From Arcticibacter eurypsychrophilus (GTDB lineage: Bacteria > Bacteroidota > Bacteroidia > Sphingobacteriales > Sphingobacteriaceae), in the NCBI RefSeq assembly GCF_001730525.1, contig NZ_MDFN01000029.1, positions 1 to 64,000 on the forward strand: a stretch of 64,000 nucleotides of DNA. Reading direction: 5' to 3'. Of the stretch, positions 44,871 through 53,775 are shown piece by piece. Each line of letters starts with the position of its first letter. Positions within the stretch are counted from its first letter, which is position 1. A model generated the notes under the pieces. That model was not told where the DNA came from and did no database searches. It was given only the letters and a program-made list of their open reading frames with translations. The translations under genes and the position numbers were made by a program.

Positions 44871-44880
44871 GTTAATTTAA

Positions 44881-46108: not shown

Positions 46109-49100
46109 TTACTGGATAGTAAACTTCAGATTTATTCCAAAATTACTAAACGAGGTATTAAAAGTTTGCGAAGTATATGGCTTATTGACACTTCCATCAT
46201 AGAACAAACGGACATTTAACCGCTGATTCAATATATAATCCAAAGAAGGTTTTATACTGATTGTTTTAGCGCCTGATGACACTTCGGCATCTTCTACATC
46301 CGCACGATAAATAACCGTTTTTATATCATTTATAGCAACATCCATTTTAAGATTCACATCGTTCTTCGACTTCCTGGAGGCAAACAACCCAAAAGGAAAG
46401 CGGAAATTAGCGGAACGATAACCCATACCCATAACAAAACCCTTTTCTTCCTGCTGAGCAAGCTGACTATTGGTTAAGCTCAAGCTCAATCCCCTGGTTT
46501 GGCGGTATTCACAGTTCAGCGACACATTATTCTTCAACCGGAAGTCAACACCGATCAACGGAACGAACTGCTCAAATAAAGTCACTTGCGTAAACTGATA
46601 ATAAGGAAGAAAATTACCCTGCGCATCCTTCACACTCACCGCACCATCCACTTCTGCATATCGTACCAGCGAATTGAATCCATTTACATTATAAGTGGAA
46701 CGGTAGCTATGATTTAAATTAAAAGAGCTAAACATATTGCTAAAGAAATCGTACTTCGTTAAACCATTATATGAAATTCGCCAGTTTGGTATAGGTATGC
46801 CTGGAAAACGTTTCAAGCTAACAGATGAAACATCCTGTCCTGTATACGCAGCGATAAAAGAGGCTACAACAACATCCTGAGAGTTCTTACCATATCCATC
46901 CGCATAACCATCCGTCACACCATTTGAATTCGGATTTCCTGCAGCAAGTCTGGAGGATATAAGGGACCTGTTCGCCTCAAACTTCCGGAATAGATTGGTA
47001 TTTCCTGATGAAGCATTTTTCCCAAATGCAGTACGCAAGGCGATAAAGGAGATACTGAAGTCGCCACTTGTAACCGGACTTTGATTCTCAAACTCGTTGG
47101 TCACTTGGTTAAACCTGAAGTTAGTTGAATAATTAAAGTTCGAACTTTTCAATGCGATGAGCTCAATCCGCAAATCCTTGATAGGTTCAATCGTTCCTCT
47201 TAAATTGATATCTTCTTTTCTGCTGGTCACGTACAATTGATTCAGTAAGGTATCACGCGTAATCCAGCCCTTTTCAACCGCCTTTCCCCGTATATCTTGC
47301 TGACTTCCAAAAATGAAGCCCCAGCCCGGTGCATTTTCATCCAGATCATAACCAAGTAGATTTGTACCCGGAAGATAACCCGGCATAAACGTCCCATTTG
47401 TAATGGTATAAGCACCCGTCAAGTTTTTAATACTTGTAACCGTACCCACCAGGAAGGAACTTAAAGACCCTTTATCCCTGGATGCTTTCCGTACAAAATC
47501 AAACTTATTATATAACCCTACAAAATTTAAAGTTGGATTAATCTGGATGATCCTCGAATTCTGAATCGTATTACCGTAATCAATAGCCGGATCACGAAGC
47601 GTAATTAAAGGCTCGGTTTTCCAACTAAAATTAGTTCCATAACGGGCAATGACATTCGTCCAGCTGAACCCCGGAATCTTATTTACCGGAAGTGTATAGC
47701 TTACATTCATCGTGTGGTTATAATCAGTTGTCCGCCCCAGCTTTTTCAGGTTCTCCCAAATCGTGTCTCTTGCCAGTCCATTCACCTTTCCCTGCGGCTC
47801 ATCAATTATAGAATAATTCGTCGCGTTGAAATCCACCTGCAGAGACTTAGTCAAATTCCAGCTGATCCCATACAATCTGCTCATCTGAAAGTTCTTATTA
47901 AACGTGGACAGCGGCAACACATTTCCCGGATCATTATCCCGAAGCGAGTTTTCCGTATACAAACGGTCCACATCTATTCGAAAGTTCAGAACCGAGGGCA
48001 TGAGGTTGAAATTAAAATCACGCAATAGCGCAAATGTGTTCGACTTAATGATCTTCGCGAAAGGCGTGTAGTTCCTTGGTTTACTATTATAGTTATAGGC
48101 CAGACTTCCACGATAAGTCTTCTGTACTGATTTTTCAGTGATATAATCCCGGTGACTGTAATCCGTAAACGAATAAGAAGCACTCAGATTCTCCACATCC
48201 CAAATCCTGCTTTTACTCGTCGGATCCGTTTTGATTTTACGCACATTAGTCAGATTAAAACTCCTCCTTTGTGTATAATCATCTACGATCCGGTGAATAG
48301 AATCCTGCTTCGCTTTAGAAAGATTCTTCAACACTGTTTTTAACTCCAGATCCGAAGACCGTGGATCATATTGCGGCGTACTGTTCTGAGTGGAAACCTG
48401 CACAAACACCGGAATCTGAATTCCTGATTTAGCCGGGAAAAACTTACCGAGCTCTACATTAGCAGCTACGTCCACCGATTTGTCATCATTTCTGTTGCGC
48501 TCACTGGTACGCTGATCAATAGACCCGAAACCAACTGTACTTTTACTTCCCGAAACCGTCACATCAGCGAAATCAGCCAGTTTCGCATTCATTCTCGCTG
48601 TAGCAGCCCATCCCCCACGCTCGTCAAAATCCGTTAATCGCAGTTCATTGAACCATACCTGTCCCGATTTCTCTAATCCATCATCACCTCCCGGCCTGGT
48701 ACTGGTACGCAAAGGATTCTTAATCCCAACCATATAGACCCTCACCTTACTTAGATCGGGCTGTCCCATTACCCGGATGGTATTCAAGCCATCCGTATAC
48801 ACATAAGGCACATTTACGGGCCAGGGTAAGCCATCCAGTAAAGCACTGTTTCTTTCCGCCTTTGCAGCCTGCAGATTCTTAAGATCCAGATCCATCGCAT
48901 TGCTTTCAGGCCAGATCGAATACGGATCACCTGTACCTGCCGGAGTAATCTGCAACGGAATCTCATACTCATAGTAATTATCCTGATTATCCGTTCCTAT
49001 CCTGACTACAGCAGAAATTTCATTGTCCTGAAGCAAGTCGCCTTCCGCATGGATAAACATTTCCAAACGGCCATACGACCTGAAATCATTATAGCCTGTT

Positions 49101-52100
49101 TTAAATGCAGCCCTCGTATACCCATCCCTCAGATTCTTCACATTAACCAACAGCGATTGCTCATTTTGCTGCGTATCGCCCGTATAATTGGTTAAATCAC
49201 GCTCCCTGTTAATGCCAGGCGGTACCACATAAGGAATAGGACTACGCTTTCCATTCTCTTCAATATTGATCGTACTCACATCCAGAACCGAATTATCTAA
49301 ACCGGGGTTAGTGCCTAAAGTAGGATCAACCAATACTTTCGCCGGACTGCTCTCCGAATTATACCTGCGCCACTCCCCTCTTGCCAACTGTAATTTAGCC
49401 AGCCGAAGCACGGAAGAATCAGCAAAGTCAGTCATAAACATCCGCATAAAACGAATGGACTTAAAATCTTCAATATTTCCTACCCGCTGCTGATACTGCG
49501 AAATAGGAATTTTAAACTGATACCAGGAAACCTGTTGCGTACTTCCATTGGCCAGTTTCACTGTGGAAGTCACTTTATCTGCAATAAAGTTCTGACCCAC
49601 CACCATATCCTGTGGACGGATTGAAATCTTATACTGATAATATTCATCCGTTAACGACATGTTATTGTCCCGGTTAATATCCTCCCCATCCGGCAAAGAT
49701 GTCGCCGCTGAGTTCTCAATGCCGGTTTCCGAAAGCGACTGCGCTATCGTTTTCGAATTACCCTCTGTTCCATTGTACTTCTCATACCGCTTTAATATTC
49801 CGGCATTCGTATCTTCCAGACTTCCTCCTCTGTAATACTGATAATTATCTGATGATGGATCCGCATTGATCTCCGCAGCTGCAGAACTAGTCAACTGGCC
49901 CGATACTTGGTTCACAAACGGAGCGAAATATTGCTTCTCAATCCCGTCACCCAATCCATCCAAGCCCACATCCTGCACCTTTCTAACCTCTGGATTATTG
50001 TCAAACGCCTGAATAATAGGCTGAAGTTTAGGCACCCTTCCCCATTGCGTACTATCCGTGCGACTTTCGCCCCCATCAGCAGGCAATCCATTTTCCAATG
50101 ACTTCCTGCCATCTTTCAGGATATCCTCTGAGATATTACCCAAATTCAAATACAAATCTCCACCCTCCGAATTCGGTTTGTAAATAAAAGGATCCATCAT
50201 CCAAATCTCCACAAACTCCACGTTTAACGACTCAAAGTCAGTCGTTTCCAGTTTACGGAATAAACCGCCCCAACGGCTTTTTGGATTAAGCAGCTGCCCA
50301 TTCTGGTTCAGCCCGGTCGTCGTATAATTATAAGGACCTCGCAACATCGGATAAAACGCCAGGTCAAAAGTAGGCAGCGTCAGCGCCAAACCTGTAGGCG
50401 ACTGTTTCAGCGGAAATACCTCCTGCTCGTAAACCTCCCGCACATAATGATTCGAAAGCTCATCTTTATTCGAACGGATACTAGCAGGCGCAGTAGAACC
50501 CGCCCGGTTAAAAAATATAGGATCCAGGTTATAAAACGCCAAACGAGAACGATTATAACCATACGAACGATCATTACTCAGTGTTGATTCAGGAAACAAT
50601 TGCGGCGTACCCGATAATTGCCAGCCAATTGCACTCTTCAAATCTATAATAGAACGTGTCCCCTCAAAATCATCCACATAACTCACCCCATTCGTACTAC
50701 CGGCAAAATCCAGTGACTTAGGATGACCGGGAATCAGGTTGGCAAATTCACCCGACATCGTCACCGAAGAAAGCACCTTAGTATCAATAAATGGTATTTT
50801 ATCCACCATCCGTGTCAGCCATCTCGAATCTGAACTATAATTCGCATCAAGCCCCCACATCGTATTTGAAATAGGTTCCTCGCCAATGTTTACCTTAGCG
50901 GTCAAAGGTTTTTCCGTCAGGTTCATAATCGTTCCCCCAATATTAAAACGGTCGCTCACTTTATAATCCAGACGGGAGCCGAATAAAGAACGCTGCTGAA
51001 GTCCAAACAACTCATTACTCTCCAATTTAATCCGGATCGTCTGACCTGAATTCAGCAATGCCTGGTTCAGAATCCGCACCCTCCCAATATTATAATCCAC
51101 AGTAAAATCTACCCCCTCTGCCAGCGGAAGCGTCCCTGCGAAAACTTGTACAGAGCCAGCAGGAATATTAGTCGCGTTCAACTGAAACTCAGAACTAACT
51201 TCCGACTGATACGTTCCTTTAATAATATAGCGATTCAACTTTGGAAACAACTGTTGTGCAATCACACGCGTAGAGTCATACAACGGCTGATACGCATACT
51301 TATCCTTCAAACTTTGCTCAGCCGGCGTAAACTGGGCAGCCAGATCAGCACCGAAAGGCTCTACCAGCGGAAAAGTAATCCGGCCATAAAGAGGGTCAAT
51401 CGTAACGCCATCCACAAAATCAAACGTTCCATCAGCACCCCTATCGCCCGCCTGATTCAAATTATCCAGATCCGTTAACTGCAGCCAGCGTTGCCCAGCC
51501 GTATTCTGCCCTTCAGACATCTGCGGTTTCTCTACTCCCGAATTCTCATCCAGACGATAAACATTCAGATTAAAATCAGTTCTACTCACTTGGTAAGCCC
51601 CCAAAGAATAGATATTTTTCATCATCAGGTCCCAGGTAGGCAAACTCGTCTTCAAATTTTCATTCTTTAGCAACTTAGTCACCAATGTCTTTGGCGCATT
51701 CGGATCAACCGGAACATCCGACGAAAGCTGTCCCACCTGGTATTCCACACCATTACTATTATACCGATAGGCCACCGCCAAAACCTCATCTGCATTTAAT
51801 GCAAAATTAAGCGAGATATAACCCAAACGAGAATTAAGCACATACTCCTGATCGGTCAGCTTACGCGCATACGTTAATTTCGAGTAGTTATCCGTACCAC
51901 CATACTGTTGAAAATAAGCATTAATACCGTTCGAATTCGTCAGCAAAGCATCCTGGGGCAGGTTTTGCAACAAATTATTAGATTGCTGCGGAAATGCTGG
52001 ATCATTTATCGGTCCCCCCGCCGGAAGCTGCGAATATCCCCCTCCACCCTGAAATAAACCAGTCTGGTAAGGAGCATTCTCCCCTAGGTCCATAAAAGCC

Positions 52101-53191
52101 AGCACATCCCTTGAATCCGTTGCACTATTTGTACGGTTGGTAATCCATACCTCCACTTTCGTAATATTTACACTGCTCCTGATAATAGGAATACTTTGCA
52201 GCGCCTCATTATACCGGTTCCGAAAGTAATGCGCAAGAAAATAATGTTTGTTTGTCTCATAACTGTCCGCACTGATCCTGAACTCGTTCTGCTGCGAACC
52301 ATTTGTAATCGTGATCTCACTTTGCTGCGACTTCTGCTGCGAAAACACACTCGTCACACTCAATGGCCCAAACTGAAGCTGTGTTTTCAATCCAAATAAA
52401 GCCTGACTCCCTGTAATCAGGGAAGAACTCAGTGGCATACTCACATTCCCAATCTCGATCTTCTGTATAATATCATCCGGTTTACCCTTCAAATCCAGCT
52501 TAATCTCGTTTTCAAAGTCAAACTGCGATTCCGTATTGTAATTGGTCGCCATGCGAAACCGCGTACCAATCTGTCCCGTCACATTCATCTGAATCCGCTG
52601 ATCAAAATCCAGGTTAAATTGCTGCCTTTGCCTTTCCGTCAACAGCGGATTCTCATTTTTATTAATCTTGCCCGAAAGGGTGATATCCGCCGATCCTTGT
52701 GCACGAATGTCAATGTTCGTGCCCCCAAAAATGGTATTAAACAAAGGACTGTTCACCGAAAAGGAAGGAATTAACCCTCCCTGCTGTTTAGTTGAATCTA
52801 CCTTAGCTGAAGATATCCCTTTCCAGAAATCATATTTAAGCTGCTGATTTTCATACCGCTGGTAGTCATCTATGGTCATATATTGCGGAGCACGGTATAA
52901 ATGCTCGCCTATTTTCTCCTGAATGATGTAACGTCGGGTTGCCGGATCAAATTCAACCGTACGGATAATATTAGATGGATTGGGCAATATCATTCCCGAC
53001 GGTTTCCGAAGCTCTAAAAGACGCGAGTCTTTAAAAGGGTAGGGAACCCTTAAACTGTCCGCATGTTTATCTTGAGAATGTACCAGTCTATTTTGTGCAT
53101 ATAATGGTAATGCGGAGAAGGAAACAAGAAATAAAAACCATACTGCAACGACAGTATTAAATCGTTTAAAAACAGGGGATATTTCCGTAAT
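46109..53191 (-). CDS. sprA: SprA, giant outer-membrane translocon of the type 9 secretion / gliding system
   Basis: A protein of about 2360 residues. SprA is the very large outer-membrane beta barrel that forms the exit channel of the type 9 secretion system, and in gliding relatives is needed for surface motility. Many aromatic, Asn-rich beta segments and a C-terminal strand ending in Phe/Gln (GINLKFTIQ) fit a barrel. The first in-frame ATG (52993) starts 30 residues after a good signal peptide, AVWFLFLVSFSALPLYAQ. No ATG, GTG or TTG lies in the 66 codons above it; the frame opens after a TAA that overlaps ruvA. The best start is ATT at 53189-53191, sharing the final A of the ruvA stop. Confidence 0.9.
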   Translation of the reverse strand: MTEISPVFKRFNTVVAVWFLFLVSFSALPLYAQNRLVHSQDKHADSLRVPYPFKDSRLLELRKPSGMILPNPSNIIRTVEFDPATRRYIIQEKIGEHLYRAPQYMTIDDYQRYENQQLKYDFWKGISSAKVDSTKQQGGLIPSFSVNSPLFNTIFGGTNIDIRAQGSADITLSGKINKNENPLLTERQRQQFNLDFDQRIQMNVTGQIGTRFRMATNYNTESQFDFENEIKLDLKGKPDDIIQKIEIGNVSMPLSSSLITGSQALFGLKTQLQFGPLSVTSVFSQQKSQQSEITITNGSQQNEFRISADSYETNKHYFLAHYFRNRYNEALQSIPIIRSSVNITKVEVWITNRTNSATDSRDVLAFMDLGENAPYQTGLFQGGGGYSQLPAGGPINDPAFPQQSNNLLQNLPQDALLTNSNGINAYFQQYGGTDNYSKLTYARKLTDQEYVLNSRLGYISLNFALNADEVLAVAYRYNSNGVEYQVGQLSSDVPVDPNAPKTLVTKLLKNENLKTSLPTWDLMMKNIYSLGAYQVSRTDFNLNVYRLDENSGVEKPQMSEGQNTAGQRWLQLTDLDNLNQAGDRGADGTFDFVDGVTIDPLYGRITFPLVEPFGADLAAQFTPAEQSLKDKYAYQPLYDSTRVIAQQLFPKLNRYIIKGTYQSEVSSEFQLNATNIPAGSVQVFAGTLPLAEGVDFTVDYNIGRVRILNQALLNSGQTIRIKLESNELFGLQQRSLFGSRLDYKVSDRFNIGGTIMNLTEKPLTAKVNIGEEPISNTMWGLDANYSSDSRWLTRMVDKIPFIDTKVLSSVTMSGEFANLIPGHPKSLDFAGSTNGVSYVDDFEGTRSIIDLKSAIGWQLSGTPQLFPESTLSNDRSYGYNRSRLAFYNLDPIFFNRAGSTAPASIRSNKDELSNHYVREVYEQEVFPLKQSPTGLALTLPTFDLAFYPMLRGPYNYTTTGLNQNGQLLNPKSRWGGLFRKLETTDFESLNVEFVEIWMMDPFIYKPNSEGGDLYLNLGNISEDILKDGRKSLENGLPADGGESRTDSTQWGRVPKLQPIIQAFDNNPEVRKVQDVGLDGLGDGIEKQYFAPFVNQVSGQLTSSAAAEINADPSSDNYQYYRGGSLEDTNAGILKRYEKYNGTEGNSKTIAQSLSETGIENSAATSLPDGEDINRDNNMSLTDEYYQYKISIRPQDMVVGQNFIADKVTSTVKLANGSTQQVSWYQFKIPISQYQQRVGNIEDFKSIRFMRMFMTDFADSSVLRLAKLQLARGEWRRYNSESSPAKVLVDPTLGTNPGLDNSVLDVSTINIEENGKRSPIPYVVPPGINRERDLTNYTGDTQQNEQSLLVNVKNLRDGYTRAAFKTGYNDFRSYGRLEMFIHAEGDLLQDNEISAVVRIGTDNQDNYYEYEIPLQITPAGTGDPYSIWPESNAMDLDLKNLQAAKAERNSALLDGLPWPVNVPYVYTDGLNTIRVMGQPDLSKVRVYMVGIKNPLRTSTRPGGDDGLEKSGQVWFNELRLTDFDERGGWAATARMNAKLADFADVTVSGSKSTVGFGSIDQRTSERNRNDDKSVDVAANVELGKFFPAKSGIQIPVFVQVSTQNSTPQYDPRSSDLELKTVLKNLSKAKQDSIHRIVDDYTQRRSFNLTNVRKIKTDPTSKSRIWDVENLSASYSFTDYSHRDYITEKSVQKTYRGSLAYNYNSKPRNYTPFAKIIKSNTFALLRDFNFNLMPSVLNFRIDVDRLYTENSLRDNDPGNVLPLSTFNKNFQMSRLYGISWNLTKSLQVDFNATNYSIIDEPQGKVNGLARDTIWENLKKLGRTTDYNHTMNVSYTLPVNKIPGFSWTNVIARYGTNFSWKTEPLITLRDPAIDYGNTIQNSRIIQINPTLNFVGLYNKFDFVRKASRDKGSLSSFLVGTVTSIKNLTGAYTITNGTFMPGYLPGTNLLGYDLDENAPGWGFIFGSQQDIRGKAVEKGWITRDTLLNQLYVTSRKEDINLRGTIEPIKDLRIELIALKSSNFNYSTNFRFNQVTNEFENQSPVTSGDFSISFIALRTAFGKNASSGNTNLFRKFEANRSLISSRLAAGNPNSNGVTDGYADGYGKNSQDVVVASFIAAYTGQDVSSVSLKRFPGIPIPNWRISYNGLTKYDFFSNMFSSFNLNHSYRSTYNVNGFNSLVRYAEVDGAVSVKDAQGNFLPYYQFTQVTLFEQFVPLIGVDFRLKNNVSLNCEYRQTRGLSLSLTNSQLAQQEEKGFVMGMGYRSANFRFPFGLFASRKSKNDVNLKMDVAINDIKTVIYRADVEDAEVSSGAKTISIKPSLDYILNQRLNVRLFYDGSVNKPYTSQTFNTSFSNFGINLKFTIQ

Positions 53192-53775
53192 TACAAACTT
53201 TTAAGTGCAAATTTAATGAGCTGCTCTACTGATAAGTCACCAGTCTCTCTTTTATATACATTATCTAAAGCTTTTTCTGCTACATTCTTTGCAAAACCTA
53301 ACATTACCAATGCAGACAAAGCTTCGTTTTTAATCGTATTATACTGGGGAAGAGATGATAAGGTTTCAATCCCTTCTTTTTTTAATTTATCCTGCAATTC
53401 CAGGATCATTCTTTGTGCAGTCTTCGGACCTATTCCTTTAATCTTCTGGATCAGAGGCACGTCCCCCTTCACAATTGCAATCTGGATCTCATCAGGCGTA
53501 ATCGACGATAAGATCATCCGTCCGGTACCGGGACCAATTCCCGACACAGAAATCAGATGAAGGAATACACGTCGTTCTCCTTCATCTGCGAACCCGTATA
53601 AAGTATGCGCATCTTCTTTAATATGCTGCCAAACGTACAGCTTACAATTCTCCGTTTCCGGCAGCTTAGCATAAGTATGAATGGATATATTGATGTGGTA
53701 ACCTACGCCACCAGCTTCTATAATCACATACGCAGCGCATTTAAACACCAACTTTCCATCAATATAAGCGAACAT
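53191..53775 (-). CDS. ruvA: Holliday junction branch migration protein RuvA
   Basis: A 194-residue RuvA. An N-terminal OB fold (MFAYIDGKLVFKCAAYVII) is followed by two helix-hairpin-helix motifs (LISVSGIGPGTGRMIL and IQKIKGIGPKTAQRMILEL) and a C-terminal domain that contacts RuvB. It forms the tetramer holding the four-way junction. It is 8 bp after the malic enzyme gene and ends in TAATT, which leads into sprA. Confidence 0.97.
   Translation of the reverse strand: MFAYIDGKLVFKCAAYVIIEAGGVGYHINISIHTYAKLPETENCKLYVWQHIKEDAHTLYGFADEGERRVFLHLISVSGIGPGTGRMILSSITPDEIQIAIVKGDVPLIQKIKGIGPKTAQRMILELQDKLKKEGIETLSSLPQYNTIKNEALSALVMLGFAKNVAEKALDNVYKRETGDLSVEQLIKFALKSL

Follow-up and report, generated by a model that had tools for sequence, protein, structure and literature searches.

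The common description of start codons is one of drift to AUG under weak selection. AUU has natural precedent as a start codon in two Escherichia coli genes. One is infC (encoding IF3), whose start outside AUG, GUG and UUG has been kept weak over evolution; the other is pcnB, whose weak start is believed to hold down a protein that does harm at high levels. Judging from its sequence, sprA of Arcticibacter eurypsychrophilus would resemble infC in being a natural bacterial gene with an evolutionarily weak start outside this set, with no ATG, GTG or TTG found upstream of its conserved coding sequence. The comparison has its limits: infC is autoregulated, with IF3 rejecting AUU, whereas no part in initiation is known for SprA, and the pcnB product is a cytoplasmic enzyme. 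We know of no family-wide record of TTG or GTG preceding the AUU of pcnB. Unlike its E. coli counterpart, infC of Arcticibacter itself uses TTG (TTG GCA TTA GG in 6/6 genomes, L222-L227), in parallel with the weak infC start elsewhere.

In the window (the whole stretch of 64,000 nucleotides that was analysed), the minus strand carries genes for malic enzyme, ruvA, sprA, gcvH, a VanZ-family gene, feoA and feoB in this order (Table 1). The sprA product is a full-length SprA/Sov protein, matching TIGR04189 with 2629 bits (cut-off 200) over profile positions 4-2319 of 2319, and the match begins at residue 69. Ahead of it, the N-terminus reads as a Sec signal peptide with a basic n-region, a hydrophobic core and ALPLYA-Q, and can be aligned with those of relatives. 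Other parts of the T9SS were found in the same genome, namely GldM (361 bits) and three sorting-domain matches.

Table 1. Features of the ruvA-sprA junction in window coordinates.
Feature	Coordinates	Strand	Remarks
ruvA	53191..53775	-	TIGR00084; stop TAA at 53193-53191
sprA (T9SS outer-membrane translocon)	46109..53191	-	2360 codons counted from ATT; TIGR04189
ATT, candidate start	53189..53191	-	One-base overlap with ruvA stop; conserved in A. svalbardensis (L003); context score -6.6
ACG, near-cognate candidate	53186..53188	-	Context score 5.5 here, 3.4 in A. svalbardensis; most family-like
ATA, candidate start	53180..53182	-	Context score -14.9, poor
TTT, at the probable place of the ancestral TTG/GTG start	53168..53170	-	Ungapped alignment and distance from ruvA
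Leader and signal peptide (ITEISPVFKRFNTVVAVWFLFLVSFSALPLYA)	53096..53191	-	3/108 nt differ from A. svalbardensis, 0 synonymous
First in-frame ATG of sprA	52991..52993	-	Too late for the signal peptide

The sprA frame follows an in-frame TAA at 53203-53201, within ruvA, and is open from 53200 through to 46109. As the earlier note had observed, it offers no ATG, GTG or TTG until ATG 52993, which lies 69 codons into the frame, 66 codons past the ATT and beyond the codons for the signal peptide ending ALPLYAQ; the open-frame check bore this out, and the ATT indeed shares its A with the TAA of ruvA. Among 351 model-called genes from a genome sample of about 0.46 Mb, sprA ranked third by coding score ahead of the first NTG, and its start-less frame is more than chance. 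The top-ranked frame in that scan (L232, minus strand, 215 codons, offset 15328 of the reverse complement) resembles an internal part of an HlyD-type protein and is probably a frameshifted or broken gene.

We compared six Arcticibacter genomes, among them that of A. svalbardensis MN12-7 (genome G004, sprA locus L003), whose SprA is 97% identical at the protein level over a 400-residue query. Over 679 codons of sprA the two species differ at 159/2037 nt (7.8%), and the sprA frame of A. svalbardensis is equally start-less, with ATT, ACG, ATA and TTT at identical places and TTT AAA CGA shared. The earlier note had offered a wrong base call as an alternative to initiation at ATT or the nearby ATA. 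A sequencing or assembly error at the start codon has in its favour that one base change would restore TTG; however, the identical error would have had to occur twice, in separate assemblies, which makes it extremely improbable. Of that earlier set of choices, the need for an unusual start held up and ATT keeps its place as a candidate, while the wrong base call does not survive the comparison.

Between the two species, dS is 0.41 and dN 0.016 (dN/dS ~0.04) in the part of sprA compared, a mark of strong purifying selection on a gene that is functional in both. Synonymous sites differ at 31%, and for the 36 codons of the leader and signal peptide 34 differences would be expected if the stretch were untranslated and neutral (P = 4e-14 for the number seen; Table 1). 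This bears directly on the reading in which translation of sprA begins at ATG 52993 and leaves out the signal peptide, or in which the pair is losing the gene by decay. That ATG is the first standard start and exists in A. svalbardensis as well, but the conservation of the signal-peptide stretch led us to reject it, and the intact 2360 codons and the low dN/dS oppose decay; taken together, we consider this reading very unlikely. Given a conserved signal peptide and purifying selection on the gene in both species, sprA must, as far as its sequence can tell, initiate at a codon other than ATG, GTG or TTG, and we are fairly confident that such a start lies between 53191 and 53168.

Within the first 42 codons of sprA there are no synonymous changes at all, whereas the longest such run elsewhere in the gene is 20 codons; 4/20000 shuffles gave a comparable result. 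Several species pairs with an ordinary TTG start show 5' damping of synonymous change too (for example, 1/21 versus 114/256 and 0/22 versus 30/115), and the start site of the start-less pair thus behaves as if it were an active initiation region, although the damping does not tell which codon serves. It suggests a nucleotide-level constraint on the initiation region of sprA. In several species pairs, synonymous change in the signal-peptide codons was likewise suppressed relative to the remainder of the gene. Several TTG-start pairs also have a conserved ruvA-sprA spacer, so its conservation is no proof of translation, and we dropped leader conservation as an argument of that kind. An Rfam search of the junction matched no RNA element, and the folding of the start region was no better than that of shuffled sequences.

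Protein alignment and the distance from ruvA both place the ancestral start at 53170-53168. Counted from the end of the signal peptide, the TTT there aligns without gaps with GTG in the genus mates L004 and L006, and the TTG of three other loci (L012, L016, L017; GTT TTG AAA/AGA) is one codon off. The TTT lies 20 nt from the ruvA stop, and the starts of four other genus mates lie at 15, 19, 20 and 22 nt. On these two grounds, the window species and A. svalbardensis most likely lost a TTG or GTG start at this homologous position by substitution to TTT.

The earlier note had instead derived the TAATT at the ruvA stop from a TAATG junction with a changed third base, by analogy with three other gene pairs of the window that are joined by TAATG. 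Those junctions exist (13919 and 25321 on the plus strand, 10167 on the minus strand), but we rejected the derivation because TAATT is older and relatives begin sprA at least 10 nt downstream. TAATT follows ruvA at 54 Sphingobacteriaceae loci, 44 of them outside an open sprA frame, and is thus the usual sequence at this stop in the family; none of the relatives examined has a TAATG start for sprA. The proposed comparison of the junction in relatives confirmed the missing ATG, GTG and TTG in A. svalbardensis, but showed that the other relatives start at TTG or GTG 10-262 nt past the ruvA stop and not at the stop itself. TAATT(AC) after the stop (53193-53187 in the window; also L010, L022 and L031) does not code for RuvA and in most cases lies outside the sprA frame. 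A TATAATTA is found across the feoA stop near 44880 as well.

On the choice of the initiating codon, codon identity and context point in different directions. Four codons in the region are one mismatch from AUG (AAG 53200, ATT 53191, ACG 53188 and ATA 53182), and TTT 53170 is two mismatches away. The earlier note had named ATT and ATA but not ACG. In a survey of codon-anticodon pairs, Watson-Crick pairing was required at codon positions 1-2, the third position was looser, and AUU read by a CAU anticodon yielded some product (PMC10158994). Since weakness at the third position is better tolerated, ATT and ATA are favoured by codon over TTT and ACG. We tentatively regard ATT 53191 as the start codon of sprA, with a confidence that stays a little short of even. 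Judged by codon, ATT comes first, but the context typical of the family would favour ACG 53188 and TTT 53170 instead.

Initiation at the ancestral place or at another near-cognate (ACG 53188, ATA 53182 or TTT 53170), with the context rather than the codon positioning the ribosome, is accordingly the main competitor of ATT. Initiation in Bacteroidia relies on upstream adenines (at -3, -6, -12 and -13) and low structure and not on Shine-Dalgarno pairing (PMC9976891), and none of these adenines precedes ATT. A context model trained on 93 family starts ordered the codons ACG > TTT > ATT > ATA > AAG, with TTT scoring 0.4 and ATT falling at around the 5th percentile for starts in the family. TTT, moreover, sits at the ancestral distance from ruvA and the AAA codon that follows it was kept. 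Against this, ACG and TTT are mismatched at codon positions 2 and 1, respectively, and the survey, which concerned IF3, found mostly third-position weakness to be tolerated (PMC10158994); the model ranked the true start first in only 71/93 cases, and the score of TTT may be a mere relic. We judge such a start unlikely, if well worth keeping in mind. A far smaller chance attaches to recoding, that is, a frameshift into sprA from the ruvA frame at, for example, TTTAAAC (53170-53164), or near the ruvA stop. Read as T TTA AAC in the ruvA frame, this run, common to both species, would enter the sprA frame by a -1 shift. The ruvA frame is, however, closed by TAA 53193-53191, CTG is the sole near-cognate start before the run, relatives require no frameshift, and TTTAAA is the trivial outcome of TTG AAA losing its G. 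A ruvA-sprA fusion by frameshifting was rejected, the shared open stretch being 7 nt long and without a good slippery site.

Across the family, ATG is avoided at sprA. Among 93 distinct Sphingobacteriaceae loci with a recognisable start, in a sample covering 25 genera, 82 start with TTG, 11 with GTG and none with ATG; since loci share ancestry, such counts are not counts of independent events. A further 40 loci, of which a few may duplicate a species, all proved to have TTG or GTG after inspection, including two that the script had labelled ATG (L248) and none (L255) and that both have TTG. In two loci (L007, L020), an ATG within the hydrophobic core or at its border is a possible alternative start. 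The neighbouring ruvA starts with ATG in 121/122 of the fetched stretches. Outside Sphingobacteriaceae, 72/88 sampled sprA loci offer GTG or TTG only and 14 have an ATG candidate; the bias against ATG is thus wide beyond the family, yet not absolute. Belinky et al. 2017 (PMC5622118) likewise described start codons evolving by single substitutions, with 43/2468 ancestral UUG starts changing to AUG and 0 to AUU, and 1/5080 GUG starts changing to AUU. Selection there was for AUG; sprA behaves in the opposite manner. The pattern suggests that SprA production is held low by selection. Literature searches of open-licence papers did not turn up any description of sprA with a conserved non-AUG start.

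The explanation that we favour, and hold to be probable, is selection for a weak start on sprA, with initiation moved in this pair to a rarer codon within 53191-53168. In Sphingobacteriaceae, sprA would be kept at TTG or GTG to limit how many ribosomes start on this very long outer-membrane protein. The window species and A. svalbardensis, the only two species seen to carry the change, would have inherited it from a common ancestor in which TTG or GTG became TTT; translation would since have proceeded from a rarer in-frame codon at or just upstream of TTT, the likeliest being ATT 53191. Given its one-base overlap with the ruvA stop, ATT could plausibly receive ribosomes fresh from finishing ruvA by re-initiation. 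The start would thus wander among weak codons and, in this lineage, exit the NTG set. A broader version must be put more cautiously: possibly, selection has long favoured a sub-optimal start codon for sprA in Bacteroidota as a whole, as a translational brake on the T9SS translocon, with one Arcticibacter lineage having gone past UUG/GUG to AUU, ACG or UUU, placed by an SD-independent context and ruvA-coupled re-initiation.

If true, sprA would offer a clear-cut example from nature of poor initiation being selected for, in a phylum without Shine-Dalgarno use, and it would lend itself to testing directly whether initiation limits the abundance of SprA. For annotation, gene callers are expected to cut sprA back to 52993 in these species, with loss of the signal peptide. 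By a rough coding-model estimate, 95/351 genes of this genome have non-ATG starts. The nearby feoB apparently starts at TTG (LKVALVGNPN; window 44870), with an in-frame ATT AAT just upstream, right after the feoA stop.
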